In this document: positions 1-15,412 of the stretch, piece after piece | How positions within the stretch are numbered: position 1 is the stretch's first letter | How the letters are laid out: each line of letters opens with the position of its first letter | Source: Verrucomicrobiota bacterium | GTDB lineage: Bacteria; Verrucomicrobiota; Verrucomicrobiia; Verrucomicrobiales; DEV007 | DNA length: 34,520 nt | NCBI GenBank assembly: GCA_024277195.1 | Contig: JAJRVS010000288.1 | Span: 1-34,520 of the forward strand | Direction of reading: 5' to 3' | The notes under the pieces: model-generated | Told to the model about the DNA's origin: nothing | What the model saw: only the letters and a program-made list of their open reading frames with translations | The model's database searches: none | Made by a program: the position numbers and the translations under genes

Positions 1-1055
1 ACAAACATATCCTGATCAGTGCCATGAGTTATGGCGCTCTAGGGAAGAATGCGGTTCAAGCTTTGGCTCGAGGAGCAAAAATGTCAGGTATCCCGATGAA
101 CACGGGCGAAGGAGGCTACCCCAAATATCATCTAATGGAAGACGCCGACCTCATTTTTCAGTTAGGTACGGCTAAATTCGGCGTACGCCATGAAGACTCT
201 TCTCTCAACGACAGCAAACTCGCTGAAATCGCTCAACTCGATCAAGTTCGCATGATTGAGATCAAACTATCCCAAGGTGCCAAGCCCGGCAAAGGGGGCA
301 TGTTGCCCAAAGAAAAAATAAGCGAAGAAATCGCTGAACTTCGTGGCATCCCCCGGGACAGGGATGCCATTTCACCTTCTTCTCACAAAGAGTGCAAGGA
401 CTTGGCCAGCACCGTCGCTTTCTTGCGTCGGGTGCAAGAAGTCTCGCAGTTGCCCGTCGGAATGAAACTCTGCATAGGTTGCCTGGATGAATTCCGAGGA
501 TTAATTCGGGAAATGAAACGCCAAGGCACCTTTCCTGATTATTTTGCCCTCGATGGAGGTGAAGGTGGAACAGGTGCAGCGCCCAAGGCTTTCATGGATC
601 ATGTCGGACTCCCCATCCTACCAGCACTTCATGGGGTGCAAACGATCTTACTGGAAGAAAAAGTCCGCGATCAAACGAAAATTCTATCCGCTGGTAAACT
701 GATCAGCCCAGGCGAGCAACTCGTCGCCATGGCACTGGGGGCGGATGCTGTATACACCGCACGAGGTTTCCTACTCGCCTTGGGATGTATTCAGGCACTG
801 CAGTGCGGCAAAAACACCTGCCCCGCCGGCATCACCACTCATGACCCAACGCTTACCAAAGGACTGGTTATTAATAGCAAAGCCGAACGAGTTTATCATT
901 ACGCCAACGCTTTGGAACGTGAGTTATTAGAATTGTTAGCCGCCTCGGGATGTTCTTCTATTCAAGACCTCACGCCAAAAAACCTTTTCATCCCTGTCGG
1001 CTCCATCCTTGCGCCCCTATCAGTTGCTACCCCACAAGCCCCCGTCATTTCATGA
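1..1055 (+). CDS. FMN-binding glutamate synthase family protein (5' truncated by window edge)
   Basis: The reading frame is open from base 3 with no start, so the N-terminus lies left of the window. The visible first residues, around ISAMSYGALG, match the FMN-barrel region of the glutamate synthase central/FMN domain. Further family marks are GGEGGTGAAP (phosphate-binding loop of the barrel) and CGKNTCPAGITTHD near the C-terminus, which matches the cysteine segment holding the 3Fe-4S cluster in GltB. There is no sign of the amidotransferase or C-terminal beta-helix domains of full GltB. This is therefore probably the single-domain glutamate-synthase-related type, whose substrate is often unknown, and classical GOGAT activity is not shown. 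The stop overlaps the next start by four bases (ATGA), which suggests co-translation with the DoxX-like gene. Confidence 0.88.
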   Translation, partial: KHILISAMSYGALGKNAVQALARGAKMSGIPMNTGEGGYPKYHLMEDADLIFQLGTAKFGVRHEDSSLNDSKLAEIAQLDQVRMIEIKLSQGAKPGKGGMLPKEKISEEIAELRGIPRDRDAISPSSHKECKDLASTVAFLRRVQEVSQLPVGMKLCIGCLDEFRGLIREMKRQGTFPDYFALDGGEGGTGAAPKAFMDHVGLPILPALHGVQTILLEEKVRDQTKILSAGKLISPGEQLVAMALGADAVYTARGFLLALGCIQALQCGKNTCPAGITTHDPTLTKGLVINSKAERVYHYANALERELLELLAASGCSSIQDLTPKNLFIPVGSILAPLSVATPQAPVIS

Positions 1056-1441
1056 AAAAATATATTATTTGGTCATTGCAGCTGATTGCGGCTCTTGCGC
1101 TACTCATCGAAGCTATCCCCAAACTCAGCGGGGCTGAAGAATGCCGAGCCACTTTCATTGCGCTGGATATGGAACCTGCCGGACGAGTGATCACTGGACT
1201 GCTCGAGCTTTGTGCCGCGCTATTGCTGATTCTTCCTAATAGCACCAGCTATGGGGCCATCCTTGCCACCGGCCTGATGAGTGGTGCGCTCATTGCTCAT
1301 ATCACCAAGTTAGGTTTTCATGGGCACCATTTCACCATGGTCATAGAAGCCTTGGTCGTCCTAACTGCCAGCATTGCGATCATCTATCTGCGCCGCCACG
1401 AAATGCCCGTTATCGGCCGCATGTTTGCCAAGGATTCTTGA
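1052..1441 (+). CDS. DoxX-like small integral membrane protein
   Basis: A 129-residue protein with about four hydrophobic segments: the N-terminal [17 protein letters not shown], then two central helices, and a last one around [17 protein letters not shown]. Size, helix count and the early helix followed by a short polar loop resemble the DoxX/DoxD-like family of inner-membrane proteins, sometimes linked to redox or respiratory functions. I chose the ATG at 1052 because it overlaps the upstream stop in an ATGA junction and is followed at once by MKKYII and the first helix. An in-frame ATG at 950 would add a polar proline/histidine-rich stretch that is the upstream gene read in another frame. 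The precise role is unknown. The overlap with the glutamate-synthase-like gene suggests one operon. Confidence 0.7.
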
Positions 1442-1466
1442 TATTCTTATAGAATGTCATAGACGT

Positions 1467-3164
1467 ATGAACTCACTCATGACAGATAAAAGACCACTCT
1501 ACATTCGTTACGCCGGCCCCGTCCTTCTAGAAACCCCCCTATTGAACAAAGGCAGCGCTTTCACCCTGGATGAAAGGCGTGCCTTCAATCTCGAAGGATT
1601 GCTGCCCTTCCAAATAGAGAGCATCGAGCAACAGGTCGAACGCTCCTACCAACAGTTCTCCCAATTTGACAACGATCTAGACAAGCATATTTACCTGCGC
1701 AATATCCAAGACGCCAACGAAACCCTCTACTTGAGATTAGTCAGCGATTATCTGGAGGAAATGCTGCCCATCATCTACACCCCGACAGTAGGCAAAGCTT
1801 GTCAGTTGTTCTCACAGATCTACCGCCGCAAACGCGGCCTGTTCATCTCCTACCCCGATCGCCACCGCATGGATGACATGCTGCAAAACGCCACCAAGCA
1901 GAATGTAAAAGTGATCGTGATGACTGACAGCGGGCGCATTCTAGGTTTGGGAGACCAAGGCATCGGCGGCATGGGCATCCCCATCGGCAAATTAGCGATT
2001 TACTCAGCCTGCGGCGGCATCAGCCCCGCTTACACCTTGCCGATCACGCTCGATGTAGGCACCAACAATCAAGAATTGCTCGATGACCCGATGTATATGG
2101 GCTGGAGAAACCCGCGCATCACCGGTGACGAATATTTTGAATTTGTCGATCATTTTATTGCAGCGATCAAGCGCCGCTGGCCTCATGTGCTGATTCAATT
2201 TGAAGATTTCGCCCAACAAAACGCCACTCCGCTGTTGGAAAAATACCAGGATCAAATGTGCTGTTTCAATGATGACATCCAAGGCACGGCCGCAGTCACC
2301 GTGGGAACTCTATTAGCAGCCTGTCACGCCAAAAAATCCAGCTTAAAAGATCACCGCGTAGTTTTTGTTGGAGCCGGGTCAGCAGGTTGCGGCATCGCCT
2401 CCCAAATCGTTGCCCACATGGTCAAAGAAGGCTTGTCCGAACAACAAGCTCTTGAGCAAGTTCATCTGATCAGCAGTGCAGGACTTTTAACTAAAGACAT
2501 GGATAACCTGATGGCTTTCCAAACCCGATTCAGTAAAAACAAACAACAAGTGGCTGACTGGAATCGCGAAAACGGTGCCATTCGCCTGCTGGAAGTGGTC
2601 AAACAAGTCAAACCCACCATCATTGTCGGCGTGTCCGGGCAACCGGGATTGATCACTGAGGAAGTGGTCAAAATCATCTACGCAAACTGCCCTACCCCGA
2701 TTGTCCTACCTTTGTCCAACCCGACCTCGCGAGTAGAAGCTTTGCCCGAAGATGTGATCCGTTGGACAGACGGCCATGCCATCGTCGCCACCGGCAGCCC
2801 CTTTGATCCGGTGAAGCATAATGGCAAAACCTACCCCATAGCCCAATGCAACAACAGCTACATCTTCCCCGGCATTGGTCTCGGCGTCATCGCCAGCGGA
2901 GCACGCCGCGTGACCACCGAAATGTTCATCACCTCAAGCGAGGCTCTAGCCGCTTGCTCCCCGCTGGTCAAAGGAGAGAGCGACCTGCTTCTGCCCGAAC
3001 TTCACACCATCCGCGACGTGAGCTCCCGCATCGCCTTTGAAGTAGGCAAACAAGCCATGGCAGAGGGCGTTGCCACCCGGGTGGACGAATCCGTATTAAA
3101 AGAATCCATCGAGCGCAACATGTGGTTCCCCGAATACCGGAACTACCGTCGAACTTCTTTTTAA
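1467..3164 (+). CDS. maeA: NAD-dependent malic enzyme (oxaloacetate-decarboxylating)
   Basis: A 565-residue enzyme for oxidative decarboxylation of malate to pyruvate and CO2 in the cytoplasm. From memory it aligns with E. coli MaeA (SfcA) nearly end to end and at the same length. Shared stretches include [62 protein letters not shown] and the C-terminal YRNYRRTS. Divalent-metal ligands lie in FEDFAQ and [10 protein letters not shown]. The Rossmann loop [10 protein letters not shown] binds NAD(P), and LSNPTSR and TGSPF are also present. I chose ATG 1467 because it gives the family length; ATG 1479 (MTDKRP) is an alternative, and neither has a clear Shine-Dalgarno. The closeness to enterobacterial enzymes is greater than I would expect for this genome type. 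NAD rather than NADP use is inferred from that similarity. Confidence 0.95.
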
Positions 3165-3191
3165 AGGAGCTCCTCAAAAATCACCCTACCA

Positions 3192-4046
3192 TCAAAACCA
3201 GAGCCGTAGTCCAGCAACCACGGAAACCGAATCGATCCCATCCCCCTCTTTACGCGCCAGACTGGAGGTCTGTCCAAGCTTGCGCTCCCAATTCACACCC
3301 ACGTAGGGGGCAAATTCGCGGCGGATTTCGTATCGCAGGCGAAGCCCCAACTCGACGTAGTTAAAACCACTGCCCACACCAAATTCAGGAACCGCTTGAG
3401 CAGCCACTTCCGTTTCCACCCGGGCTTGAGCAATCAACCTCTGGGTGAATAGAAAATCCTTGCTTGCCGTCAGCCTCGCTGACACCTCTCCATTTTCACT
3501 GATAAAAATGACCGGAGTCACCTCATAACTATACGGTGCAAAGCCCTGCAATCCCAAGGCAGCAAAATAGCGTGAAGAGGTCTTACCTGATTGCCAGATA
3601 GGGTCGTAACGCAATCCCACTTGAGCATCCCAGAAGGGAGCGATCATACGACTGTAATACCCGTGAATTTCAGCATTTCCGTTAGAATCGTCCTGTAGAC
3701 TTTGCTCACCTTCGGTCTTAAACCAAAAACGATTCACATTCCCTCCATACCGACCCTCAACATCCCAACTGAGCAGATCGCTGCCATCATTCAGCCGATA
3801 TTCCATTTGATCAAACAATAGTAAACCAAAAGATCCCACTCCCATCGACTCCATTTTGTAAGGCAGGTATTCAGCATCTTCTGGAGCGATAGTAGGCTGA
3901 TTCATGAACATTTTTTGCTCCCCCTGTTCAGATTGAGGCATCACCTTATCCTGTGAATAACAAGTCAGCACCGTTATCCAAAACAGCATGATCCCGAGCC
4001 ACGCTCGCAGCACCTTCAGATTCACCATTACGATTCCCTTACTCAT
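3192..4046 (-). CDS. copB: Copper resistance outer-membrane protein CopB/PcoB family
   Basis: A 284-residue exported protein. The start at 4046 overlaps the copA stop by four bases (ATGA). A longer in-frame start at 4127 lies inside copA and would place a polar segment before the signal peptide, so I rejected it. The N-terminus has a signal sequence (around LRAWLGIMLFWITVLTCYSQ). A short Met/Gln-containing linker follows, shorter than the Met/His-rich region of many CopB proteins. The rest is a beta-barrel typical of the family, with the marks DQMEYR, GRYGGNVNRFWFKTEGE, QVGLRYD, FAPYVGVNWERKLG and a terminal RLWF. Family role: copper binding or passage at the outer membrane, working with CopA. 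It is the last gene of the sensor-sigma-copAB operon. Confidence 0.9.
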   Translation of the reverse strand: MSKGIVMVNLKVLRAWLGIMLFWITVLTCYSQDKVMPQSEQGEQKMFMNQPTIAPEDAEYLPYKMESMGVGSFGLLLFDQMEYRLNDGSDLLSWDVEGRYGGNVNRFWFKTEGEQSLQDDSNGNAEIHGYYSRMIAPFWDAQVGLRYDPIWQSGKTSSRYFAALGLQGFAPYSYEVTPVIFISENGEVSARLTASKDFLFTQRLIAQARVETEVAAQAVPEFGVGSGFNYVELGLRLRYEIRREFAPYVGVNWERKLGQTSSLARKEGDGIDSVSVVAGLRLWF

Positions 4047-5893
4047 GCTCCCGCCTTCCCCTTCATCGGCTTCGAAACCGATACTACCCGGAACATTCCC
4101 ATGTCCATGTGAAAAATGAGATGGCAATGAAAGGCCCAGTTACCCGGAGCATCCACGGTAACATCCGCCGAAAGGTGTTCAGCAGGTTTCACATTAATAG
4201 TATGTTTACGAGGATTGTGCTGGCCATTCCCGTTGTTGAGAACCATCCACATCCCATGCAGATGAATAGGGTGATTCATCATCGTATCATTAATAAAAGT
4301 AAGCCTAACCCGTTCACCATATACCAAGCGAATCGGCTCCGTGCGTTTCGAAAAACTTTCACCATCAAAAGACCACATATAACGATCCATATTGCCAGTA
4401 AGATGAAGTTCAATTTCACGGCGAGGTGGCCGCAAATCAACTCCGGGTCTCGGAGACTTTAGGTCGGTGTAAACCAAAACTTTACGCCCATCGTTCCCCA
4501 AACCGATGCCCGGCTCATTCAGACGACTTTTGGAAATAGTCGCCACGGTTGTATTACCCACGCCATGACGATCTGGACCGTGACGATAGGTCTTTGATAA
4601 ATCTGCAGCACTCTTTTTCATCCTAGGCATCCCTCCCCCTTTACCAACAGGCGAGGGAGAATTCTCCTTAACGCTCGCCTTCATCTTCTCATGACTCATC
4701 CCCGCCATCGAAGAGGATCCGCTTGACTCACCACCCGTCTTATTCATTCCCTTCATGCCCCCCATAGCCATCCCCATGTCTTCCATGGTCAGCAAAGGCC
4801 GCTTCCTTCTTTTCGGCACAGCTGCGGACATTCCTGAACGAGGAGCAAGAGTCCCCCTTGCATATCCACTGCGATCTATGCTCTCGGCAAAAATAGTGTA
4901 GGCCCGGTTTTCTTCAGGCTCGACGATGACGTCGTAAGTTTCCGCAACACTGATCCTGAACTCATCCACTGCAACCGGCTGGATATTTTGCCCATCTGCT
5001 TGTACCACCGTGAGCTTCAAACCAGGAATCCTCACATCGAAGTAGGACATCGCCGCCGCATTGATAAATCGCAATCGCACTTTCTCCCCCGGCTTGAACA
5101 AACCCGTCCAATTACTTTCGAGTCCATTCCCATTCATCAAATAAGTATAAGCATAACCCGTGACATCCGAAATATCAGTTGGAGCCATCCGCATCTTACT
5201 CCATGACAACCTGTTTTTCACTGTGGCAAGCAAACCATTCTGCCGAGAGTCGCGAAAAAAATCTGGGACTGTACGCTTTTGATAATTGTAATAATCAGCT
5301 TGTTTTTTCAACCGCTTCAATACCCGGTGAGGATCTCCGAATACCCAATCCGAAAGCACGATGACGTATTCCCGGTCGACAGCCAAAGGATCCGCTGCCA
5401 CCGGATCAATGATCAAAGGCCCGTAAACACCGGTTTGTTCCTGCAATCCTGAATGACTATGATACCAGTAGGTGCCACTTTGAGTAACTGGGAAACGGTA
5501 TTCAAAAGTTTCTCCCGGCTTGATTCCGTCGTAACTAATCCCCGGCACACCATCCATTCGAAAAGGAAGGATCAAACCATGCCAGTGAATCGAACTATCT
5601 TCTCGCAAATGATTAGTCACTCGCAACAGCGCATCGCTGCCTTCTTTTAATCGCACAAGCGGTCCTGGCACAGTCCCGTTGATTGTGGTTGTCTTCACCT
5701 GTTTGCCCGCCACCTCGATCTGAGTCTCGGCTATGTTAAGCTCTATCAGATTGCCCGAAGCATCTGCCGCCAGCTTGGAATCAGCTCCGCGTGCATAAGC
5801 AGGTGAAATCGTTGCTGCTGCAGCGAGCGCCCCGTAATCTCCACTTTTTTTCAAAAAACGACGTCTCGAAATACTATGCGCTACTTGTTCCAT
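4043..5893 (-). CDS. copA: CopA-family multicopper oxidase, Tat-exported
   Basis: A 616-residue periplasmic copper-resistance oxidase thought to oxidise Cu(I) and sequester copper. It begins with a Tat signal (SRRRFLKKSGD then an Ala-rich h-region ending near AYA). The cupredoxin domains carry the four copper motifs: IHWHG, WYHSHSG, HPIHLHG and HCHLIFHMDMGM, so type 1, 2 and 3 copper ligands look complete. Between about residues 370 and 440 is a Met/Gly/Ser/Lys-rich insertion with MEDMGMAMGGMKGMNK and MAGMSHEKMK, the kind of Met-rich copper-binding stretch seen in CopA/CueO. Its start lies nine bases after the sigma-factor stop, with a GGA just upstream. The stop overlaps copB. Position behind a CnrYXH-like module suggests metal-induced expression. 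Confidence 0.95.
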   Translation of the reverse strand: MEQVAHSISRRRFLKKSGDYGALAAAATISPAYARGADSKLAADASGNLIELNIAETQIEVAGKQVKTTTINGTVPGPLVRLKEGSDALLRVTNHLREDSSIHWHGLILPFRMDGVPGISYDGIKPGETFEYRFPVTQSGTYWYHSHSGLQEQTGVYGPLIIDPVAADPLAVDREYVIVLSDWVFGDPHRVLKRLKKQADYYNYQKRTVPDFFRDSRQNGLLATVKNRLSWSKMRMAPTDISDVTGYAYTYLMNGNGLESNWTGLFKPGEKVRLRFINAAAMSYFDVRIPGLKLTVVQADGQNIQPVAVDEFRISVAETYDVIVEPEENRAYTIFAESIDRSGYARGTLAPRSGMSAAVPKRRKRPLLTMEDMGMAMGGMKGMNKTGGESSGSSSMAGMSHEKMKASVKENSPSPVGKGGGMPRMKKSAADLSKTYRHGPDRHGVGNTTVATISKSRLNEPGIGLGNDGRKVLVYTDLKSPRPGVDLRPPRREIELHLTGNMDRYMWSFDGESFSKRTEPIRLVYGERVRLTFINDTMMNHPIHLHGMWMVLNNGNGQHNPRKHTINVKPAEHLSADVTVDAPGNWAFHCHLIFHMDMGMFRVVSVSKPMKGKAGA

Positions 5894-5902
5894 TTTTTCA
5901 TC

Positions 5903-6526
5903 CTAGGGCTCCAAACTTTGCAGATATTTCTTCAACTGCTTTTTAGCTCGATATACACGAGTTTCCACTGCCTTGATACTACATCCCAACAAAATCCCTG
6001 CTTCCTCTTGCGTATTACCCTCCAGGGAAAAAATTACCAGCGCTTGCTTCAAATCGATCGGCAAGCTGTCTATCGCCTGCATAATTTGCGCGTTTTTTTC
6101 TTCAGCCATCACCACCTGCGCCGGATCGGGACTTGCTTTGCGCATTTGATCCAGATCCACATTTCCCGAAAGCTGGGAATCAAAAATTTGCTCCACGTAA
6201 TGCAACGGTCGCCGTTTGCGGGAACGGATCCAGTCGCGACACAAATTACCGGTGAGGGTATAAAGCCAGGTTCGGAACTTCCCCTTGGGTTTATACTTGG
6301 AGCGCTTGAGATAAACCCGCACAAAAGCCTCCTGCACCAGATCTGCCGCTTCATCCGTATCGTGCACAAAACGATAAACGTAGCTGTGTAATGCCTGCTG
6401 GTAACGCGCCATGATCTCGTTCAGAGCCAGATCATCTCCCTGCTGCAAGCGTAAGATTAGCGCTTGATCGACTTCATCACGATCAACTTCACCGTTCACA
6501 TCGAGCGTAGAATCTGCCTCCATCAT
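5903..6526 (-). CDS. ECF RNA polymerase sigma factor, CnrH-like position
   Basis: A 207-residue sigma-70 family ECF factor. Region 2 includes YQQALHSYVYRFVHDTDEAAD, LVQEAFVRVY and the DNA-melting/-10 recognition helix FRTWLYTLTGNLCRDW. After a linker, region 4 has the helix-turn-helix SLEGNTQEEAGILLGCSIKAVETRVYRAKKQL. There is no sigma-1.1 or region 3 domain. The start is ATG at 6526, or the next codon, also ATG, at 6523. It sits between the CnrX-like sensor (17-base gap) and copA (9-base gap). Gene order anti-sigma, sensor, sigma matches cnrYXH of Cupriavidus metallidurans. I infer it is held by the anti-sigma at 6998-7336 and released on periplasmic metal, then transcribes its own operon including copAB. 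The target promoter was not identified. Confidence 0.9.
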   Translation of the reverse strand: MMEADSTLDVNGEVDRDEVDQALILRLQQGDDLALNEIMARYQQALHSYVYRFVHDTDEAADLVQEAFVRVYLKRSKYKPKGKFRTWLYTLTGNLCRDWIRSRKRRPLHYVEQIFDSQLSGNVDLDQMRKASPDPAQVVMAEEKNAQIMQAIDSLPIDLKQALVIFSLEGNTQEEAGILLGCSIKAVETRVYRAKKQLKKYLQSLEP

Positions 6527-6542
6527 CTATGCCAAAGGCTAC

Positions 6543-7001
6543 TCAATGAGAATGAGGCAAAGACTCGCCAGCAAGCTGTAACAATTGATCATATTGCTCC
6601 GACGTGAGAATTCCCTCCATCTCAAACAAATGCTCCAGAGTAGCTTTCTGCAATTTCGCCATCGCTTTATGAATCTTCTCTACAGCCTTTTCCACTTCTG
6701 GTGAGTATGAACGCTCATTAGCCAGCACCCTAGCAAGGTCTGCGTTGGCAGCATTCAGGGAGCTTCGCAACTCATCCTCTCTTTTTTTTGCTTTGGCCTC
6801 AAGAGGAATCAATTTCTCTTCTTGTTGGGGAGTCAGAACAATGGCTTGGTGCAGTTCGGCATGAGTGGCTCCTCCGCTGTGTGTGACAAATTCAGAGGAA
6901 TGTCCCCGGCTCAAGCCAATACCCAAATAACTACCACCCAGACAAGCGACAAACACCACAGCCCCCACCGCCAACAAACCCGCTGCACCCTGTTTTTTCA
7001 T
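6543..7001 (-). CDS. CnrX-like periplasmic heavy-metal sensor
   Basis: A 152-residue protein with an N-terminal membrane anchor (residues about 8-30) and a helical-hairpin periplasmic domain. From memory it resembles CnrX of Cupriavidus metallidurans, for example ATLEHLFEM against ATLVHVFEM and a shared SPEVE turn. CnrX metal ligands H42, H46, E63, H119 and M123 have counterparts H47, H51, E68, H124 and M128 here, with the same spacings (4, 17, 56 and 4). That makes direct metal sensing likely. The C-terminus ends in His-Ser-His. The start overlaps the CnrY-like stop by four bases, so the two are probably co-translated. CnrX senses Ni/Co; because copAB lie downstream I infer copper or a broader specificity here. 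It also belongs to the broader CpxP/ZraP-like helical family, so a chaperone-like role is the alternative. Confidence 0.85.
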   Translation of the reverse strand: MKKQGAAGLLAVGAVVFVACLGGSYLGIGLSRGHSSEFVTHSGGATHAELHQAIVLTPQQEEKLIPLEAKAKKREDELRSSLNAANADLARVLANERSYSPEVEKAVEKIHKAMAKLQKATLEHLFEMEGILTSEQYDQLLQLAGESLPHSH

Positions 7002-7336
7002 CGTGCGCTCCCGTGTGAGGTAGGTAGTGGTAAATAGAGCGAATTGACATCAAACGCATCCGCCCATGCTAAATCAGCACTAGCAGATTTAGAACTCGGA
7101 GCGCCCTCGAAAGTCGAACCATAAACAAAACCAAAGCCTGTTGTCATTCCCAGAAAAAGCAAGGCCATCACCGGTTGCGCCAGCCATAAAGGCCAGGAAA
7201 AAAAGACTGGCGAAGCATTCTCCTCACGTCGCTGAATGGATCGCCAAACTCGGGACGCCATATTGCTCGGCAAATCCGGAACAGGAAGGCGCTGCAGCTG
7301 CATCAGTTCATCTTCTAGCTCTTCATCTTGTATCAT
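6998..7336 (-). CDS. Putative membrane anti-sigma factor, CnrY-like
   Basis: A 112-residue protein with an acidic N-terminal cytoplasmic segment (DEELEDELMQLQRLPVPDLPSNM), a basic helix and one transmembrane helix at about residues 45-72 (WPLWLAQPVMALLFLGMTTG). A short periplasmic tail follows. It has no HxxxCxxC zinc motif. The topology and first position of the operon match CnrY, which wraps the sigma factor with a short N-terminal helix and is bound by CnrX outside the membrane. Sequence similarity alone is too weak to prove this, so the call rests on size, topology and gene order. It is the first gene of the minus-strand operon, so its promoter should lie within 7337-7617. Confidence 0.7.
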   Translation of the reverse strand: MIQDEELEDELMQLQRLPVPDLPSNMASRVWRSIQRREENASPVFFSWPLWLAQPVMALLFLGMTTGFGFVYGSTFEGAPSSKSASADLAWADAFDVNSLYLPLPTSHGSAR

Positions 7337-7617
7337 ACTGGTTAATATAACGACATAATTTCACAAAATCCCTCATATTATTTTAAAAAATTCACCTTCT
7401 AAAAGGCTAATTCCAGCAACCTACCGCTGAGATGCAGCTTAGGGAGAATCAAATCCAGAAAGAGCCGTTACCCTGAGAAAAAAGAGAGAGAGCTTCCAAA
7501 CTCACTATTTTTATCTATTTTTATCTTGCGCGCATCCATTCAGCAGTTAAAAACGTAATGTCTAAAAATGTTCTTTTCTTGTAAGGGACTCATTAAAATC
7601 AGACGTATAACAAAAAA
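7337..7617. promoter_or_regulatory. Divergent intergenic region between anti-sigma operon and cytochrome c gene
   Basis: This 281-base AT-rich gap holds both promoters: leftward for the anti-sigma/copAB operon, rightward for the cytochrome-porin cluster. Visible structure is a perfect 10-bp tandem duplication (CTATTTTTAT twice) at 7505-7524. There is no open frame of note. I looked for an ECF-type GGAAC plus CGT pair at 16-17 bases on both strands and found no convincing one. CGT-containing sequence close to each start (7346-7353 on the minus side, 7601-7604 on the plus side) is only suggestive of -10 elements. Confidence 0.6.
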
Positions 7618-8055
7618 ATGCAAAACCAAACCAAATTAAATCGTAAATCCTCTGCTTTCATCTTAGGAGCGCTTACGCTTTCCATGGCATTTGTCGGAGC
7701 AGTTCACGCCGCCGACAAACCTATGGGCCCCCCTTGGGATGCTCCCAGTTCAGCGTCCTCGAAAAAAAATCCGGTCAGTGCTGACAAGGCTTCTCTCAGA
7801 AAAGGCAAAAAACTCTACAAAGCAGCCTGCCTGCCTTGCCATGGAGCTACCGGCAAAGGCAATGGAGCTGCCGCAGTCGCCCTGCCAATCCACCCGGGCA
7901 ATCTCACCGATTCCAAACGCATGTCAGGTCAAAGTGATGGTGCGATTTTCTGGAAAATGTCTGAAGGTCGTGGCCCCATGCCGCCCTTCAAAGCATCGTT
8001 CAGCGACACTGATCGATGGAACATTCTCAACTACATCCGAACGCTGGCTAAATAA
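7618..8055 (+). CDS. Periplasmic monohaem c-type cytochrome
   Basis: A 145-residue protein with a signal peptide (h-region FILGALTLSMAFVGAVHA, cleavage probably near residue 31). A low-complexity linker is followed by one class I cytochrome c domain. The haem site is C71-LPC-H75. The likely distal Met ligand is M121 in GRGPMPPF, followed by the usual C-terminal helix WNILNYIRTLAK. The domain type is common among diffusible electron carriers and small subunits of periplasmic oxidoreductases. It starts a plus-strand run with the porin (30-base gap) and the cytochrome lipoprotein, and is divergent from the metal-sensor operon. Its electron partner is not visible in the sequence. CopA or an outer-membrane route through the next gene is possible. 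Confidence 0.9.
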   Translation: MQNQTKLNRKSSAFILGALTLSMAFVGAVHAADKPMGPPWDAPSSASSKKNPVSADKASLRKGKKLYKAACLPCHGATGKGNGAAAVALPIHPGNLTDSKRMSGQSDGAIFWKMSEGRGPMPPFKASFSDTDRWNILNYIRTLAK

Positions 8056-8085
8056 GCCAATTTCACCTCACACGCTCAATTATCC

Positions 8086-9606
8086 ATGAAAACGATGAAA
8101 CGAAGCCTACTCACTCTGCTGGCCTTGTCAGCGACAACCTTCAGCGGAAACTTAACCGCGCAGGAAGCCGATAAAAAAGCTGCCGCGCCTAAAGTTGCTC
8201 CTAAAGTTGCTCCTAAAGTTGCTCCTAAAGTTGCTCCTAAAGTTGCTCCTAAAGTTGCTCCTAAAGTTGCTCCTAAAGTTGCTCCTAAAGTTGCTCCTAA
8301 AGTTGCTCCTAAAGCTGCTCCTAAAACAGTCTCCCCTGTTTCCCGCGCTGAATACGACAAACTCAAACAAGAGCTGGATACGCTCAAAGCCCAGATGCAA
8401 AAAGTGCTCGCAGCAAAAGCGCAAGCTCCTGCTGCCGCAGCTCCCGCACCGGCGCCACCAACGCCACCATCTGGTGGCAGCGGCAAAGCTGTAGTCGAAG
8501 CAAGTGCTCCGGCTATTGACTCCGCGCTCGAAGATCGCTTGGTGGCACTTGAAGAGTCTGCTGCTATGGTCATGCCGGGTTCAACCAACTCCCTGCTTAC
8601 TGGCTTTGCTTTTGCTGGCTACGATAACCTGAGCAACCAGGATTCCTCCTTCAATGCAAGTTTCAGCCCCATTTTCCTTTGGAAACTCGGAGACAACGTA
8701 TTTTTCGAAAGCGAAGCGGAAATTGGATTGGAAGGAAATGAGACCACCGTTGATTTAGGTTATGCTCAGATCGCCTACATAGTGAATGATTACCTCACGC
8801 TCGGAGCTGGTAAGTTTCTTAGCCCCAGCAATTACTTTGGCGAAAGAATTCACCCAGCGTGGATCAATAAATTTGCCTCCGCTCCCTTGCCTTTTGGCCA
8901 CGGAGGATTGATGGCAGGAAGCCAACTCGGCATTCAAGCTCGAGGCGGAATTCCCATTGGCACTACCCGCGCCACCTATGCTTTTTACCTCTCTAACGGC
9001 CCCTCGCTCAATGTAGGAGGTGACGACGGAGATGCTGGCCATGACGTGGAAGAGCCGGGATCACTCGATTTCAATAATTTCGGTGACATCAATAACAACA
9101 AGGCCGTTGGCGGACGTGTTGGTTTCAAGCCCATCCCTTCTCTTGATATTGGATACGGCTTTGAATTTGCGAGCGTAGCACCATCAGGCAGTGAATTTGG
9201 CAATGTGGACGCCATCACTCATTCAATTGACGCCAACTACGTGAAAAACTCTTCACTGCTTCTCGGAGTCATTGACGCCCGCACGCAACTCGTCTGGCTC
9301 GACATTGACAACCCTGGCATTGCTCCACTCGATTACGGCAACGGAAGCCGGGGTGGTTACGGGCAAGTTGCCTATCGTCCCATGGAAATCGGCAACGATT
9401 TTGTCAAAAGTTTCGAACCCGTCGCTCGTTATGATTGGATCAACAAACCGGGCGGAGAAGAAACCACTCGAATGAGCTTCGGACTCAATTACTGGATCAA
9501 TGCTAGCACTGTGTTTAAAGCATCCTACGAGTTTGGCACAGAAAAAGATGCCCATGGCAGCGACGACTTCACTGGTGTGCGTATTCAGGCAGCCATTGGA
9601 TTTTAA
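8086..9606 (+). CDS. Outer-membrane porin-like protein with N-terminal lysine-proline repeat and coiled coil
   Basis: A 506-residue exported protein (start 8086, or MKRSLL at 8095). The signal peptide ends around residue 26. Residues 36-79 are eleven four-residue KVAP-type repeats. Next comes a short heptad-like coiled coil (EYDKLKQELDTLKAQMQKVL, about 91-110) and an Ala/Pro-rich linker. From about residue 165 there is a beta-barrel of alternating polar/aromatic strands, ending in ...AAIGF with the terminal Phe typical of outer-membrane barrels. Segments such as LTLGAGKFLSP, HPAWINKFASAPLPFGHGG and LGIQARGGIP fit a porin family in which a short coiled coil precedes the barrel, as in Planctomycete and Proteobacterial porins. 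The basic Lys/Pro repeat could span or bind peptidoglycan. Substrate is unknown. Confidence 0.75.
   Translation: MKTMKRSLLTLLALSATTFSGNLTAQEADKKAAAPKVAPKVAPKVAPKVAPKVAPKVAPKVAPKVAPKVAPKVAPKAAPKTVSPVSRAEYDKLKQELDTLKAQMQKVLAAKAQAPAAAAPAPAPPTPPSGGSGKAVVEASAPAIDSALEDRLVALEESAAMVMPGSTNSLLTGFAFAGYDNLSNQDSSFNASFSPIFLWKLGDNVFFESEAEIGLEGNETTVDLGYAQIAYIVNDYLTLGAGKFLSPSNYFGERIHPAWINKFASAPLPFGHGGLMAGSQLGIQARGGIPIGTTRATYAFYLSNGPSLNVGGDDGDAGHDVEEPGSLDFNNFGDINNNKAVGGRVGFKPIPSLDIGYGFEFASVAPSGSEFGNVDAITHSIDANYVKNSSLLLGVIDARTQLVWLDIDNPGIAPLDYGNGSRGGYGQVAYRPMEIGNDFVKSFEPVARYDWINKPGGEETTRMSFGLNYWINASTVFKASYEFGTEKDAHGSDDFTGVRIQAAIGF
8191..8322 (+). repeat. 12-bp in-frame minisatellite in the porin gene
   Basis: The unit AAAGTTGCTCCT occurs ten times perfectly from 8191 to 8310. 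An eleventh copy with one change (GTT to GCT) occupies 8311-8322. It encodes the KVAP repeats of the porin. The near-zero divergence suggests recent expansion, and a 12-bp unit allows copy-number change without frameshift. It also keeps other frames open on both strands, which produces spurious ORFs. Confidence 0.97.
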
Positions 9607-9651
9607 TCGGCTTAACCCCATCGAGATCAAGCAACTATATTTTTTATCAAC

Positions 9652-9969
9652 ATGAATGCGAAATCAAATCACACTTCTGAAGGACACTCCCCACGTCACA
9701 TCATCGCCATCCTCAGCCTTGGCTTACTGGCTCTCGGATTGAGTGCCTGCTCCAATTTGTCCGAGTCTGACGGCGAAGACAGTGCCGCCATCCAGCAAAG
9801 TGGTGCCGAACTCTGGGCCAACAACTGCTCCAGTTGTCACAATTACCGTGACCCCGGAGCATACACCGATGCGCAATGGGAAGTCGCCAGTTTGCACATG
9901 AGAATCCGTGCCAATCTCACCGGCCCGGACTACCGCGCCATCAAGGACTTCTTGCAAAGCAGCAACTAA
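9652..9969 (+). CDS. Monohaem cytochrome c lipoprotein
   Basis: A 105-residue protein with a lipoprotein signal: the hydrophobic stretch IIAILSLGLLALGL runs into the lipobox LSAC, with the lipidated Cys at residue 33. After an acidic linker there is a minimal cytochrome c domain with haem motif C59-SSC-H63 and a probable distal ligand M83 (within LHMRIRANL). The final helix DYRAIKDFLQSS is typical of small class I cytochromes. The residue after the lipobox Cys is Ser, not Asp, so outer-membrane sorting is plausible by the E. coli rule. It follows the porin by 45 bases and closes the cytochrome-porin-cytochrome run. Function inferred: short-range electron transfer at a membrane surface. Confidence 0.85.
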   Translation: MNAKSNHTSEGHSPRHIIAILSLGLLALGLSACSNLSESDGEDSAAIQQSGAELWANNCSSCHNYRDPGAYTDAQWEVASLHMRIRANLTGPDYRAIKDFLQSSN

Positions 9970-9985
9970 AATCAATCCTCCTTCA

Positions 9986-10016
9986 AGCGCCCTGTCATTT
10001 AACCTGACAGGGCGCT
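9986..10016. terminator. Strong hairpin between convergent genes
   Basis: The arms AGCGCCCTGTCA and TGACAGGGCGCT form a perfect 12-bp stem (9986-9997 with 10005-10016) around a 7-base loop. It lies 16 bases after the cytochrome lipoprotein stop and 24 bases from the convergent isomerase stop. There is no T-tract on either side, so it is not a canonical intrinsic terminator. A bidirectional transcription block or RNA 3'-end protection fits best. A second weaker 7-bp hairpin lies at 10024-10042 across the isomerase stop. Confidence 0.6.
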
Positions 10017-10040
10017 CGATAGAGAGCTATACTTCATAGC

Positions 10041-10979
10041 TCAGACATCACAAATCTCCACACCTTGTTTCAAGGATGCCAGCTTATCTTCTCTGGCAGG
10101 GATAAACTCCTGAGCCACCCAGGCTTTGTAACCGGTGTCCACGATTGCTTTCATAATCGCTGGGTAAAAAAGTTCCTGACTGTCATCAATCTCATGCCTC
10201 CCCGGCACCCCGCCGGTGTGATAATGGGAAATATAGGAATGATGTTTTTTGATGGTAGCGATCACGTCCCCTTCCATGATCTGCATATGATAAATATCGT
10301 ATAACAATTTAAAATTCGGCGAAGCAACCTCCTTGCAAAGATCCACCCCCCACTGGGTATGGTCGCATTGGTAATCCTCGTGATTCACTTTGCTATTCAA
10401 TAACTCCATACTCAAAGTTACTCCCAGTTTTTCCGCCAAGGGCATCAAGCGTTTCAGGCCAGTCGCACAGTTTTTGATCCCCTGCTTGTCATCCAAACCC
10501 TCACGGTTGCCAGAAAAACAAATCACGTTGTTAAAACCAGCTTCAGCAGAAGCTTTGATCAATGGTTGATAAATTTCTACCAGTGTGTCGTGATGCTCCA
10601 AGCGATTAAAAGCCTTGGTGATGCCTCCGACTTTCACCCCCTGGTCCGTTTCCCCCTGAGGAAAACTCACCATAGCACAGTGCATGCCATGTTTTTTCAA
10701 AGTCGCAAAATCCTCAGGCAATAACAATTCGACCGAAGCCAAACCAAATTTTTTGCCCGCCTCACACAAATCATCCAGCGGTATTTTGCTGTAACACCAC
10801 TTACACGCCGAATGTTTGATCCGGCCTTTTAATCCCGCTGAATCAAGCGATTTCTCTGCCGCTTGCAATCGTCCCTGCAAAGCACCCACCCCCGTCGCCG
10901 CTGCGCCAAGACCTAAAGAAAGACCTGCTGATTGCTGAAAAAAATTACGCCGGGAAAAAGTGCTGTCAGATTCATTCAT
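10041..10979 (-). CDS. Tat-exported sugar isomerase/epimerase TIM barrel (hydroxypyruvate isomerase-like)
   Basis: A 312-residue protein with a Tat signal (SRRNFFQQSAG then a Gly/Ala-rich h-region). An AP-endonuclease-2-type TIM barrel follows. Metal and substrate motifs fit the Hyi family: MELLNSKVNHEDYQCDHTQWGVDL, KLLYDIYHMQIMEGD, ISHYHTGGVPGRHEID and a late WVAQEF glutamate. Hyi enzymes interconvert hydroxypyruvate and tartronate semialdehyde. Many paralogues in Planctomycetes and Verrucomicrobia carry Tat signals and have uncharacterised sugar substrates, so the reaction here is unproven. The stop sits inside a small hairpin. The MFS gene upstream is 30 bases away, so they may share a transcript. 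Confidence 0.82.
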   Translation of the reverse strand: MNESDSTFSRRNFFQQSAGLSLGLGAAATGVGALQGRLQAAEKSLDSAGLKGRIKHSACKWCYSKIPLDDLCEAGKKFGLASVELLLPEDFATLKKHGMHCAMVSFPQGETDQGVKVGGITKAFNRLEHHDTLVEIYQPLIKASAEAGFNNVICFSGNREGLDDKQGIKNCATGLKRLMPLAEKLGVTLSMELLNSKVNHEDYQCDHTQWGVDLCKEVASPNFKLLYDIYHMQIMEGDVIATIKKHHSYISHYHTGGVPGRHEIDDSQELFYPAIMKAIVDTGYKAWVAQEFIPAREDKLASLKQGVEICDV

Positions 10980-11009
10980 GATGACACTTTAACTGAATTC
11001 AAGGCGCAA

Positions 11010-12257
11010 TCAAATCACCTTCTCACGAATCAATTTGAGCAGCATCCAGAGCAGCAGCGTCGTGCCCAATAATGCCAAACTGGCACAGATCAAAAACACC
11101 CGATTGGGTGCCAGCCCCAATTGCGAGCGAGCCGACAAATAAATCAGCGAGCCCACCGTACTGGCCATGAAAGACAAAGCATTGGCTGTACCCAGAAAAC
11201 GCCCACGCTCGTCATCCGGTGATAACTTTTGTAACAGAGCTTGCAGCGGAATGATATAAAATCCGGCAAATACCCCTGCCCCGGCGATAAAAAACGCCAC
11301 CATTTTGAATTCAGGCTTCACCAGTCCTAACAAAGCAAAAAACACGGTCATACCCGCCGCGCCCAAAGGTATCAATTTAGGCTGGATTTTGTGCCTCGAT
11401 ATGAATCCGGCCAACACACTGCCAATGCCAATGGCAAGACCCATGATGCCCAGCAAATACCCTGCTTTGGTTGCTGAAATATCCAGTAAAGTTCGATACT
11501 CGGGAAGGATCAACAAAGCCATCATGCCAATCATATAAAAAGAAGCCCAGGCGATGGCCACCGTTAGCAAGCGTGTTTTGCGCATGTCTTTTAATGCACC
11601 AAAATAAATACTGAAAGGGTTCCAACAGAATTTAAGCGCAGGGTTCATCGCTTTCAGCGCCGGCATGAACATGATCGCCACCCACCCCAACACCGCAAGT
11701 CCCAGCAAAGCCATGCCCGGCACCGCAGAGCGTGCAGAACTCGGTGCGCTGCCTTGGAAGGCATCGTAAATAGGCCCAGCCAACAAGGTACCGACAATCA
11801 CCGCGATATTGGTAGACATATTGATAAATCCGTTCGCCTGACACAAATCCTCATCGGTGACCAATTCAGGAATCATGCCATACTTGGCCGGTCCAAAAAA
11901 AGCACTCTGAATCGCCAGCATCAACATCGCACTCAAAGCCAACCACATATTGCCAAGAAAAAATCCCAAAAAAGCAATCAAGGCAATTCCAATTTCCACC
12001 ACCTTGACCCACCTCGATATCCTCTGCTTACTGAAGCGATCCGCCAGTTGCCCGGCATAACCCGATAGTAAAATAAAAGGGATCGTCAGACACAAACCCA
12101 CATAAGCCGGCCCACCGTCCCCAAGAGGCCCATGCCACACACCTCCGCTTGCTACACAAAAGACCAGGATCGTCTTGAGCAAATTGTCATTCGCCGCCCC
12201 GAAAAACTGCGCCACCGTGAGGCTGAGGAATCCGCGTTTGAGAAGTCTGGCATTCAT
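11010..12257 (-). CDS. MFS transporter, LplT-like
   Basis: A 415-residue inner-membrane protein with about 12 hydrophobic helices. The start MNARLLKRGFLSLTVAQFFGAANDNLLK resembles LplT-type lysophospholipid transporters, and the loop QLADRFSKQRISRWVKVVEI is the usual MFS motif-A position between helices 2 and 3. I prefer ATG 12257 over the in-frame ATG 12287, which adds a Cys-rich polar leader (SCLGCCTKK) before the first helix. The acyltransferase that LplT is often fused to or paired with is absent here. The substrate could be a lysophospholipid or another amphiphile. The gene precedes the Tat-exported isomerase on the same strand. Confidence 0.75.
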   Translation of the reverse strand: MNARLLKRGFLSLTVAQFFGAANDNLLKTILVFCVASGGVWHGPLGDGGPAYVGLCLTIPFILLSGYAGQLADRFSKQRISRWVKVVEIGIALIAFLGFFLGNMWLALSAMLMLAIQSAFFGPAKYGMIPELVTDEDLCQANGFINMSTNIAVIVGTLLAGPIYDAFQGSAPSSARSAVPGMALLGLAVLGWVAIMFMPALKAMNPALKFCWNPFSIYFGALKDMRKTRLLTVAIAWASFYMIGMMALLILPEYRTLLDISATKAGYLLGIMGLAIGIGSVLAGFISRHKIQPKLIPLGAAGMTVFFALLGLVKPEFKMVAFFIAGAGVFAGFYIIPLQALLQKLSPDDERGRFLGTANALSFMASTVGSLIYLSARSQLGLAPNRVFLICASLALLGTTLLLWMLLKLIREKVI

Positions 12258-12371
12258 TTTTTTGGTGCAGCACCCTAAACACGACAAGGCTCAGTGTCGA
12301 ACGTAAGTATTTTCAAATCAAAGGGAAAAAGGAGCTAGTCATCGAGCGCTAATAGGTGATAATTTGCATCC

Positions 12372-13994
12372 ATGAACAGGTTTTTAAAAATCTTGATCTT
12401 ATTTTTGCTTGTAGCGGAAACCGTCACGCCTACTAACGCAGCAGATCCTAAGAAATCTGCCAAAGAGGCGATCGAGCGCTACAGCTCTGCTACCAAAAAG
12501 AACCCGAACGATGTCGTTGCCTGGAACGGTCTGAGCACCGCCTTGATATTCCTGGGCAAAACATCTGAAGGGCTCGCGGCTTTTCAAAAAGCCATCCAAC
12601 TCAATCCCAAAAACGCCTCTTTGTTGTCCAATATGGGAAAAGCCTTGCTCGACTCAGGACAACTGGATGAAGCCATTACGGCTTTACATCAAGCAATCGA
12701 AATCAACCCCGAAAGTGCCGCCGCCTGGGCTAATCTTGGCGGATGTCTGCTCAAACAGGGCAAAATGAAAGAAGCCTTCGAAGCCACCCACAAAGCAACC
12801 GGACTAGGCCCGGCTGATGCCACTGCATGGAACAACCACGGAGCCGTATTGCTCTATTTGGAAAAACTGGATGAATCCGTTGAAGCCTCACAACGAGCCA
12901 TCAAACTCGATCCGAAAAACGCCCTGAGTTGGGCTAATCTTGGCGCAGCACTGCTCAAACAAGGCAAAGTAGATGAATCCATCACCGCATCTGAGAAGGC
13001 AACCCAACTGAACCCGCAAGAAAGCATCGCATGGAACAATCTAGCCGGAGCCTTGCTCGAACAAGGCAAAACGGCAGAAGCTGTTATTACCATAAAAAAA
13101 GCCCTTGATATCAATCCGGCAGACGCGGAAGCCTGGAGTAATTTGGGAGTGATCTTGCTCAAACAAGGTAAAGCCGAAGAAGGGATCAACGCCATTCGTA
13201 AGGCTTGTGAAGTGAACCCGCTTCATGTCAATAGCTGGATCAAACTCGGAGAGACGCTGCTGATTCGCGCAGAATATGAAGGCGCGATCAAAGCTTCTCG
13301 CAAAGCCATCGAACTCGATCCCAAAAACATCGCCGCTCTGGGCATTTTGATCAAAGCCAACGGCCAGTTAAAACACCCCGACCGTGTGGGCACATTGATG
13401 GCTCGATGGCTGCTAGTTCAATCGAGTGCAGCTAAAACCAACAATGACAAACCTCTGATACTGGAAATGGCCAAAGGTCTGAAAGTCCTGCAAGTCGAAG
13501 TGCCACTTGAAACACCCTCACCCTCAGCGATTCAGGATTATTACAAAAAACACAAGGATCGTTACAATAACGACCAGGTTCATCTGAAAATGATATCGGC
13601 TCCCATGGTCACCAAAACCATGCAAGCCATGGAAACGTTACGTAAACAATTGGCAAATGGCGGAGACTTCACCGCTCTGGCAAAAGAACATTCAGACGAC
13701 TCGGCAGCGACTAATGGAGGAGATCGCGGATGGATGAAACGAAGCGATTTGCGCAAAGGTCTGGCTGACATTATCTTCTCCTTGAAAGTCGGTATAATCA
13801 GCCCGGTGCTGGAAGATCTGGACCACTACCGGATCCTCACCGTGATCGAAAGAAAAACCGGCGCCCCCACCCCGCTTGTAGAAGTCAAAGAACGAATCAT
13901 TTTCCAATTAAAAGCAGCAGCGATGGAACAGAAAATCCAGCAGTGGATCGTCGATGCACGCAAAGAACTGAACGAAGCCCAGAGCCGATTGTAA
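12372..13994 (+). CDS. Secreted TPR protein fused to a parvulin (PpiC-type) peptidyl-prolyl isomerase
   Basis: A 540-residue exported protein with a signal peptide to about residue 23. Eight tandem 34-residue TPRs follow, from AWNGLSTALIFLGK to SWIKLGETLLIRAEYEGAIKAS, each ending in L/I-(D/N)P-K/A type turns. A linker around residues 375-400 (SAIQDYYKKHKDRYNNDQVHLKMI) resembles the SurA/PpiC segment before the catalytic domain. A parvulin domain spans about 395-500, with the marks GGDFTALAKEHSDDSAATNGG, DRGWM and FSLKVGIISPVLE. Role inferred: periplasmic folding factor that uses the TPR array to bind clients or partners. The sulfatase follows after 26 bases, so it may be co-transcribed. TPR and parvulin domains in one periplasmic protein are not a combination I know well. 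Confidence 0.85.
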   Translation: MNRFLKILILFLLVAETVTPTNAADPKKSAKEAIERYSSATKKNPNDVVAWNGLSTALIFLGKTSEGLAAFQKAIQLNPKNASLLSNMGKALLDSGQLDEAITALHQAIEINPESAAAWANLGGCLLKQGKMKEAFEATHKATGLGPADATAWNNHGAVLLYLEKLDESVEASQRAIKLDPKNALSWANLGAALLKQGKVDESITASEKATQLNPQESIAWNNLAGALLEQGKTAEAVITIKKALDINPADAEAWSNLGVILLKQGKAEEGINAIRKACEVNPLHVNSWIKLGETLLIRAEYEGAIKASRKAIELDPKNIAALGILIKANGQLKHPDRVGTLMARWLLVQSSAAKTNNDKPLILEMAKGLKVLQVEVPLETPSPSAIQDYYKKHKDRYNNDQVHLKMISAPMVTKTMQAMETLRKQLANGGDFTALAKEHSDDSAATNGGDRGWMKRSDLRKGLADIIFSLKVGIISPVLEDLDHYRILTVIERKTGAPTPLVEVKERIIFQLKAAAMEQKIQQWIVDARKELNEAQSRL

Positions 13995-14020
13995 TAAATC
14001 CTCCCATTTTCCCCAATACT

Positions 14021-15412
14021 ATGAAACTCCAAGCCTATTTATTTTACACCCTGTTAGCTGGCTTTTTTCTCCTCAACAGCCAATCGCAAGGTCAAGATAC
14101 CGTCACAACCCCAGCACGCCCCAACATCGTTTTCATCATCGCCGATGACCTTGGCTGGGCGGATGTCGATTTCCACGGGGGCAATGTTCCCACCCCCAAT
14201 CTCAAACAGCTGCTCGACGAGGGCATGGGACTACGACAGCATTATGTAGCTCCCGTTTGCAGCCCTACCCGGGCAGGTTTCATGACCGGGCGCTACTGGA
14301 GTCGCTTTGGCATCACCACCCCGACCAATTCTCTAGCGCTGCCATTCAACACCGTCACGGTTGCCAAAGCTCTCAAAAAATCAGCTTATAACACCTGCAT
14401 CACCGGCAAGTGGCATCTCGGCTCCAAGGCCGAATGGGGTCCTAATCATTTTGGTTTTGACCACAGTTACGGATCGATGGCGGGCGGGGTCACTCCTTGG
14501 TCACATTTTTACAAAAAAGGTCCCTACTCGACCACTTGGCATCGCAATGAAAAACTCTTCAGCGAACAAGGACACGTCACTGACTTGCTCGCAAAGGAAG
14601 CCGTCACTTGGATCGAAAAACAAAAAGATGATACTCCCTTTTTCCTCTACGTCCCTCTCACCGCCGTCCACCTTCCGATTCGCGAACCTCAAACCCTGCT
14701 CGATCGGGTGCCAAAGGAAATCACCGGAGAAGTGGCGCGTCACTACGCCGCCTGCATTCTCCACCTCGACGACGCGGTGGGGCAAATTGTGGCAGCTGTC
14801 GAAAAATCCGGTAAAAAGGACAACACTCTCATCATCTTCACCAGTGACAACGGGGGCTCCACGGCTGAAAACAACGACACCAAATATCCCAACATCAAAG
14901 ACGACTGCCCCAATGGAGCGCTGACCGGCAACAACCTGCCCCTGCGTGGCAAAAAAGGCGACCTCTACGAAGGCGGCACTCGCGTTCCCACGATTGTTCG
15001 TTGGCCTGGAAAAATTGCCGCCGGCAGCTCCAGCGAAACGCCCGTTCACATCGTCGACTGGATGCCGACCTTCTGCTCTCTCGCAGGTTACCCTGCCGAC
15101 CAGTCCAAACTAAAGTGGGACGGCACCAACCTCTGGCCACTGCTGTCGGGCAAAGGCAGCTTACCTGCACGCAGCCTCTACTCCGCCGGCACCAGCTTCC
15201 GCTCTCAAGCCCTGCGCGACGGCGACTGGAAATTGATCCTGTTTTTCGCCAAAAACGGCAACGAAAACAAAGCCGAACTCTTTAACCTCGCCACTGACCT
15301 CAACGAAAAAAATAATCTGACCTCGACTGAACCCAACAAACTTGCCGAACTACGCAAAAAACTCAAAAAGCTCGCCGCCAATGATCGCGACGCCCTTGCC
15401 CCGAAGTCATAA
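14021..15412 (+). CDS. Type I sulfatase (formylglycine-dependent), secreted
   Basis: A 463-residue arylsulfatase-family enzyme with a signal peptide (MKLQAYLFYTLLAGFFLL). Metal site residues are in IIADDLGWAD. The formylglycine motif is C80-SPTR-A, with catalytic Cys80 to be matured by FGE. The second signature is ITGKWHLG. Late metal ligands are in FTSDNGG, and GTRVPTIVRWPG is typical of the N-acetylgalactosamine/arylsulfatase group. I chose ATG 14021 because it starts the signal peptide; an in-frame ATG at 13943 lies inside the TPR-parvulin gene. Natural substrates are probably sulfated polysaccharides. No FGE gene is in the window. It converges with the large helical-repeat gene, with only 12 bases between stops and no visible terminator. 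Confidence 0.95.
   Translation: MKLQAYLFYTLLAGFFLLNSQSQGQDTVTTPARPNIVFIIADDLGWADVDFHGGNVPTPNLKQLLDEGMGLRQHYVAPVCSPTRAGFMTGRYWSRFGITTPTNSLALPFNTVTVAKALKKSAYNTCITGKWHLGSKAEWGPNHFGFDHSYGSMAGGVTPWSHFYKKGPYSTTWHRNEKLFSEQGHVTDLLAKEAVTWIEKQKDDTPFFLYVPLTAVHLPIREPQTLLDRVPKEITGEVARHYAACILHLDDAVGQIVAAVEKSGKKDNTLIIFTSDNGGSTAENNDTKYPNIKDDCPNGALTGNNLPLRGKKGDLYEGGTRVPTIVRWPGKIAAGSSSETPVHIVDWMPTFCSLAGYPADQSKLKWDGTNLWPLLSGKGSLPARSLYSAGTSFRSQALRDGDWKLILFFAKNGNENKAELFNLATDLNEKNNLTSTEPNKLAELRKKLKKLAANDRDALAPKS

Follow-up and report, generated by a model that had tools for sequence, protein, structure and literature searches.

A CnrYXH-type sigma factor switch placed before copAB in a Verrucomicrobiota bacterium

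Metal sensing by an extracytoplasmic function (ECF) sigma factor and its anti-sigma factor has its model in the CnrYXH system, whose specificity has been studied mainly for nickel, cobalt, and zinc. CopABCD copper resistance systems are classically controlled by two-component systems. A stretch of 34,520 nucleotides from a Verrucomicrobiota bacterium (contig JAJRVS010000288.1 of GenBank assembly GCA_024277195.1; lineage Verrucomicrobiia, Verrucomicrobiales, DEV007), referred to below as the window, brings these two subjects together. An initial annotation, made from the sequence alone, had described an anti-sigma factor, a CnrX-like sensor, and an ECF sigma factor directly upstream of copAB, and all five open reading frames (ORFs) are present as described. 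Which metal does such a module answer to, and how are its copper genes related to the nickel and cobalt cargo of CnrYXH? The analysis makes it very probable that the locus is a complete copper-responsive sigma switch of the CnrYXH kind, co-transcribed with its main output, copAB. Its parts are the following.

7349 to 7375, minus strand: predicted CnrH-type ECF promoter, TGAGGG (−35), N17, CGTT (−10); the only match in the window, recovered as a de novo motif in relatives.
6998 to 7336, minus strand: CnrY-type anti-sigma factor Y, 112 aa; called from a single hydrophobic segment, its position, and profile matches.
6543 to 7001, minus strand: CnrX-type periplasmic sensor X, 152 aa; called from Pfam, phmmer matches to the PDB, ligand alignment, and AlphaFold/Foldseek.
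5903 to 6526, minus strand: ECF sigma factor, counterpart of CnrH, 207 aa; called from Sigma70_r2, r4_2, the match to CnrH 4cxf, and the sigma tree.
4043 to 5893, minus strand: CopA, periplasmic multicopper oxidase, 616 aa, with a Tat signal and a Met-rich stretch; TIGR01480.
3192 to 4046, minus strand: CopB, outer-membrane copper resistance protein; PF05275, ATG start read from the sequence.

On the minus strand, from position 7336 to 3192, the five abutting genes run Y, X, sigma, copA, copB. Y and X overlap by 4 nt, X is separated from the sigma factor gene by 16 nt and the latter from copA by 9 nt, and copA and copB again overlap by 4 nt. Because neighbouring genes overlap or sit 9–16 nt apart, they are likely to form one transcription unit. 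The first reading of copB had to be corrected, its likely start being the ATG at 4046, which overlaps the copA stop codon as ATGA, rather than the TTG at 4127. Both products pass curated family cut-offs (CopA against TIGR01480, E = 6e-255 and 847 bits for a cut-off of 479; CopB against PF05275, E = 7e-76). No resistance-nodulation-division (RND) efflux gene was matched in positions 1–15000 of the window; the cargo is CopA-CopB, not CnrCBA.

The sensor X is a true homologue of CnrX, as initially proposed. It matches the Pfam family Metal_resist (PF13801) at E = 5e-11 and, in a phmmer search of the PDB, NccX (4clv) at E = 3e-15 and CnrX (3zg1) at E = 5e-14; an alignment profile that includes the window sensor, and also CnrX itself, finds CnrX at E = 1e-40. 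Its AlphaFold model (mean predicted local distance difference test score, 86.7) has helices at residues 6–32, 44–53, 58–95, 101–129, and 134–150, the first being a transmembrane (TM) helix and the other four the sensor helices. The 15 best folds returned by Foldseek for this model are all CnrX or NccX, and the matches include PDB 3epv, which is CnrX in apo and copper-bound forms. The claim that all five CnrX metal ligands are kept at the same spacing also held when the alignment was run: H47, H51, E68, H124, and M128 align on CnrX H42, H46, E63, H119, and M123, without gaps between ligands. These residues are among just ten invariant columns of a 21-member sensor alignment, and all five are intact in 162 of 168 sensor homologues, far beyond chance. 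The same set is found in sensors linked to copAB, to cnr, to Cus-like RND genes, and to TonB-dependent receptor genes; since copper, nickel/cobalt, and TonB cargo thus have it in common, the ligands alone cannot set specificity. A few relatives carry an altered clamp: TSDHM, DHEHI, HHEHK, HYEHM, and LQHHV (L042:9835-10302, L204, L223, L044, and L046). L042 retains the promoter and the trio despite this alteration, so its sensor may be unresponsive or respond to another signal.

The sigma factor contains regions 2 and 4 (Sigma70_r2, E = 9e-20; r4_2, E = 7.5e-11) and matches CnrH (4cxf) at E = 4e-19. In the sigma tree, CnrH and its kin group with copper-linked sigma factors of Pseudomonadota (support 93), and the window sigma factor groups with those of its own class. 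Y consists of a predicted N-terminal cytoplasmic sigma-binding stretch, one TM segment at about residues 44–62, and a short periplasmic tail. A seven-sequence alignment including the window Y matches sphingomonad Y proteins in a profile comparison (E = 2e-10; none for the reversed control), and the sphingomonad Y profile matches the CnrY group at E = 1e-4, with a probability of 53.

A conserved promoter accompanies the module. A de novo paired-box search upstream of the Y genes of relatives recovered two motifs: GAGGG-N16-CGTA, present in 74 of the 88 cases from Pseudomonadota, and GAGGG-N16-CGTT, present in 8 of the 10 from one group in the window's phylum. A strict pattern, TGAGGG-N15-17-CGT[A/T], precedes Y in 68 of 102 Pseudomonadota loci and in 13 of 17 copper- or RND-linked loci of the window's phylum, compared with 0–1 for permuted boxes; a further 67 sites lie ahead of copA in Pseudomonadota, and none of 43 TonB-type loci has the pattern before Y. 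The window holds a single such site, at 7375–7349, 12 nt upstream of the Y ATG, and shuffling the upstream region put a site in its last 50 nt in 3 of 20,000 cases. CnrH promoters have been mapped for cnrY and cnrC, with transcription starting 24 and 25 nt ahead of the gene, respectively (PMC9045368; PMC11647585 also lists the cnrY start). In each promoter, CGTA occupies positions −12 to −9 exactly and the −35 box is G-rich (GAGGG/AGGGG), and in its boxes the window promoter resembles this class. By analogy, transcription of the operon is predicted to start at about position 7340, which would leave a leader of about 4 nt and a near-leaderless Y. The predicted −10 box also lies 9–10 nt before the Y start in most copper- or RND-linked relatives from the phylum (L028, L034, L036-L038, L041-L043), implying a nearly leaderless anti-sigma mRNA there too. 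Genes for small PII-like proteins directly follow the same promoter in two copper loci (L043:10932-11312 and L040:17702-18103; the assignment was checked against Pfam for L043 only), which may point to a PII-type protein acting together with metal efflux.

Which genes might this promoter serve elsewhere in the genome? Among 33 genome-wide matches to the strict pattern, five stand before a plausible gene start, namely those of Y, a Cu-ATPase, a lipoprotein with cytochrome c and heavy-metal-binding (HMBD) domains, a DUF3347 protein, and a GDSL lipase; two further sites precede short, doubtful reading frames. The Cu-ATPase is the sole one above the family cut-off in the genome, and its promoter site lies 29 nt before the ATG. 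Apart from the site of Y, four are credible, and three of these precede metal genes, a sorting that covered the sites of the strict pattern only. A rough figure for the chance that a site lands on the correct strand and no more than 60 nt ahead of a given named gene is 32 × 60 / 11 million, or about 2 in 10,000. This predicted copper regulon is the strongest computed argument for copper as the signal. The site of the GDSL lipase-like gene (L300:1131-2717, contig C118 of the same genome), a perfect and intergenic match 28 nt before the start, is either due to chance or marks an unexpected regulon member.

A mechanism can be proposed by analogy with CnrYXH, in which the binding of nickel or cobalt recruits Met123 and Y releases the sigma factor, while zinc leaves Met123 out and gives no signal (PMC7689651). 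At rest, the single-pass Y would tether the ECF sigma factor to the inner membrane, and X would be docked beside Y in the periplasm. Excess periplasmic copper would bind the clamp of X, and recruitment of its methionine would shift the last helices of the sensor so that Y frees the sigma factor, which would direct RNA polymerase to promoters of the strict pattern. The site before Y would amplify the entire operon, and the other sites would add the Cu-ATPase, the HMBD-cytochrome lipoprotein, and the DUF3347 protein; CopA and CopB would then detoxify copper. In Cupriavidus metallidurans, the whole cnr cluster is induced when cells are acutely exposed to copper (PMC7563307), so the clamp may report copper in vivo, and together with the CnrYXH mechanism this makes the same chemistry with copper plausible for the window sensor. 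The sequences show the genes and their layout as an operon, the homology, ligands, and predicted fold of the sensor, the conservation of the promoter, and the copper character of the predicted regulon. We infer that copper is the inducer and that these promoters are the ones used by the window sigma factor, and the release mechanism is taken over from CnrYXH.

Several observations weigh against a copper-dedicated CnrYXH-type switch. A direct profile comparison of the window-type Y with the CnrY group gave no match, and RpoE-type sigma factors outscore CnrH for the window sigma factor in the PDB search. The 33 genome-wide matches to the strict pattern compare with 46 for its reversed control, which is no enrichment; therefore, only the placement of sites carries weight. 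The Cu-ATPase reading frame (L297:7095-9446, contig C255 of the same genome) ends near its C-terminus at an in-frame TAG, meaning that either the gene is broken or the assembly is wrong at this point. Furthermore, copA, copB, and copC of Sphingobium sp. ba1 are raised under 10 mM nickel, a response reported as not previously known (PMC5557971), so the specificity of this control may not be narrow.

The nickel response of Sphingobium also speaks for the rival explanation that survives best, although it is an unlikely one: the sensor would keep the nickel/cobalt specificity of CnrX, or sense several divalent metals, and the copper genes would provide collateral protection. The identity of the five ligands with those of CnrX fits this explanation, as does the overlap of copper, nickel, and cobalt responses in C. 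metallidurans (PMC7563307). However, the cargo within 20 kb is copper-specific (copAB, copCD, Cu-ATPases) in Pseudomonadota and in part of the window's class, the predicted regulon adds a Cu-ATPase and HMBD proteins, and copper-linked sensors have in common a pair of residues, H111/M114 in the window, that is absent from CnrX, where Glu/Ala is found instead. In raw counts, all 106 sensors with His111/Met114 are copper-linked and all five with Glu/Ala (cnr-type) are RND-linked, and position 114 is the most cargo-informative column of the sensor alignment. Because the tree gives just three independent pairs on supported branches, the link between H111/M114 and cargo is not statistically established; the pair can be taken as a clade signature and, though not phylogenetically independent, as a lead for copper specificity, not as proof. 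HX2M motifs in SilE bind Ag(I) (PMC10080550).

Much less probable still is that copAB is under an ordinary copper regulator (CopRS/CusRS or CueR), with Y, X, and the sigma factor as inconsequential neighbours. Two-component control of CopABCD is established knowledge, but here the genes are co-directional and abut or overlap, a sigma-type promoter stands ahead of Y, the same linkage is found in two phyla, and no CopRS or CueR gene was recognized among the ORFs of window positions 1–12000. A CorE-type system, with the sigma factor itself binding copper, would likewise combine a copper output with an ECF sigma factor but can be dismissed almost entirely, the window sigma factor stopping at residue 207, about nine residues past region 4 (matched to 198), without the Cys-rich C-terminal extension of CorE, and a separate membrane sensor and anti-sigma factor being present.

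The second part of the question concerns the distribution and history of the copper-dedicated switch. A first sample comprised 80 loci from named genomes, nearly all of them sphingomonads or caulobacters; 78 loci could be scored, and in 69 of these the first scored copper gene beyond the sigma factor gene is copA. In a second, separate sample of 398 Pseudomonadota genomes, the sensor occurs in 17, and 20 loci were examined, of which 17 have copAB and three have cnr/ncc-like RND genes. The search for a conserved gene order, suggested in the initial annotation, thus found sensor-sigma-copA-copB to be standard in sphingomonads and their relatives: it is kept in sphingomonads, caulobacters, and plasmids, many relatives being plasmid-borne. 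Within the sample of the window's phylum, a relative of the sensor was found at E = 1e-3 in 24 of 288 genomes, beside Cu-ATPases, copAB, and CusB/CusA-like efflux genes, and the exact Y-X-sigma-copA-copB order only in the window. A scan of genome contigs with the window sensor as single sequence gave no matches; a four-sequence alignment query did retrieve relatives. Commonplace among sphingomonads, the gene order is unusual for the family to which the window belongs. The one genome of the same genus examined for an empty site lacks the flanking gene. Acquisition of the operon from sphingomonads was also weighed, but its guanine-cytosine content is ordinary and CopA and the sigma factor group with the window's own class in the trees, so a recent transfer is not indicated, although among 59 genomes of the family no other has a CopA above the cut-off.

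In the sensor tree, the nickel/cobalt branch (CnrX, NccX, and kin) lies with copper-linked sensors of Pseudomonadota (support 92). The initial interpretation was sound as to CnrX homology, ligands and their spacing, the CnrYXH-type module, and the copper output (CopAB, with a promoter common to the Cu-ATPase), but its suggestion of a module re-targeted from nickel and cobalt was not borne out, copper-linked modules being commoner in both samples and CnrX and CnrH falling with copper-linked proteins in both trees. Derivation of the nickel/cobalt module from copper-linked ones is likelier than the reverse. A copper linkage first and nickel later is favoured but not proven, because the trees were rooted at their midpoints and leave many forks open. 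From this distribution, copper appears to be the usual function of the CnrYXH-type switch family and nickel/cobalt the exception. A broader proposal is put forward tentatively and with more doubt than confidence, according to which the family would serve mainly to sense copper, in two or more phyla and with a promoter and regulon that are conserved, and the derived nickel/cobalt offshoot would have kept the clamp. Jointly with this, and just as provisionally, the offshoot might have lost the His-x-x-Met/His pair near the clamp, which would help to set copper specificity, possibly as a second Cu(I) site. Databases hold many copper-linked relatives, which lie next to copper genes under the label 'periplasmic heavy metal sensor'; a literature search of partial coverage found no paper on CnrX-type control of copAB, and a prior description is possible.

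Other CnrX-like genes of the window's order and family have different surroundings, most sensor/sigma pairs being found without copper or RND genes. In most of 43 loci examined, the gene after that of the sigma factor belongs instead to one family of TonB-dependent receptors (about 700 aa), often at a distance of no more than 150 nt (L035:9760-13032, L208-L221, L225-L228, L230, L231, L236, L240, L242, L243, and L246). Sensors of this type keep the five ligands, usually have Asn/Gln or other residues at positions 111/114, and have no TGAGGG promoter. In three family members (G751 C211, G837 C458, and G707 C124), divergent CnrX-like matches and divergent multicopper oxidases lie within a few kb of each other and may represent a second copper-linked type. 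In the window itself, positions 8086–9606 encode a predicted outer-membrane protein whose signal peptide is followed by about ten tandem KVAP repeats, and the gene lies between two small c-type cytochrome genes (7618–8055 and 9652–9969); a pattern search of the window placed no CnrH-type promoter in this region.

If the family does mainly sense copper, the CnrYXH model is its outlier, and, with one identical five-ligand clamp serving several metals, determinants of specificity outside the first shell could be tested directly. The promoter, being conserved, offers a means of predicting copper regulons in poorly studied phyla, and the module would provide an explanation for the nickel-induced copAB of Sphingobium, if that strain carries it.

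Comparison with known systems places the window module as follows. With CopABCD/PcoABCD it has the CopA and CopB output in common, but an adjacent ECF/anti-sigma/sensor module stands in the place of CopRS/PcoRS, and no copCD adjoins. CorE of Myxococcus xanthus is also an ECF sigma factor that turns on copper genes, but it senses copper itself via its Cys-rich C-terminal domain and has neither an anti-sigma factor nor a CnrX-like sensor (PMC3107203, PMC10141476). The sphingomonad clusters of Blastomonas pBSY18_1, Novosphingobium pLA3, and Sphingomonas pISP0 have the same Y-X-sigma-copA-copB order, ligands, HxxM pair, and promoter boxes, with matching Y profiles; unlike the window, they often have copC/copD beside them or divergent and an extra promoter before copA, and the window copA and sigma factor lie on a separate branch. 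With CnrYXH of C. metallidurans pMOL28 and NccYXH, the module has in common the anti-sigma/sensor/sigma order, the sensor fold with its TM anchor and all five ligands, and the promoter class (GAGGG/AGGGG, spacer, CGTA). It differs from CnrYXH in its copAB cargo in place of the CnrCBA nickel/cobalt RND pump, its −10 box (CGTT versus CGTA), its near-leaderless Y gene, its H111/M114 versus Glu/Ala, and a Y without a direct sequence match to CnrY. The window module is thus a real and well-preserved relative of CnrYXH, and a copper-dedicated variant of it.

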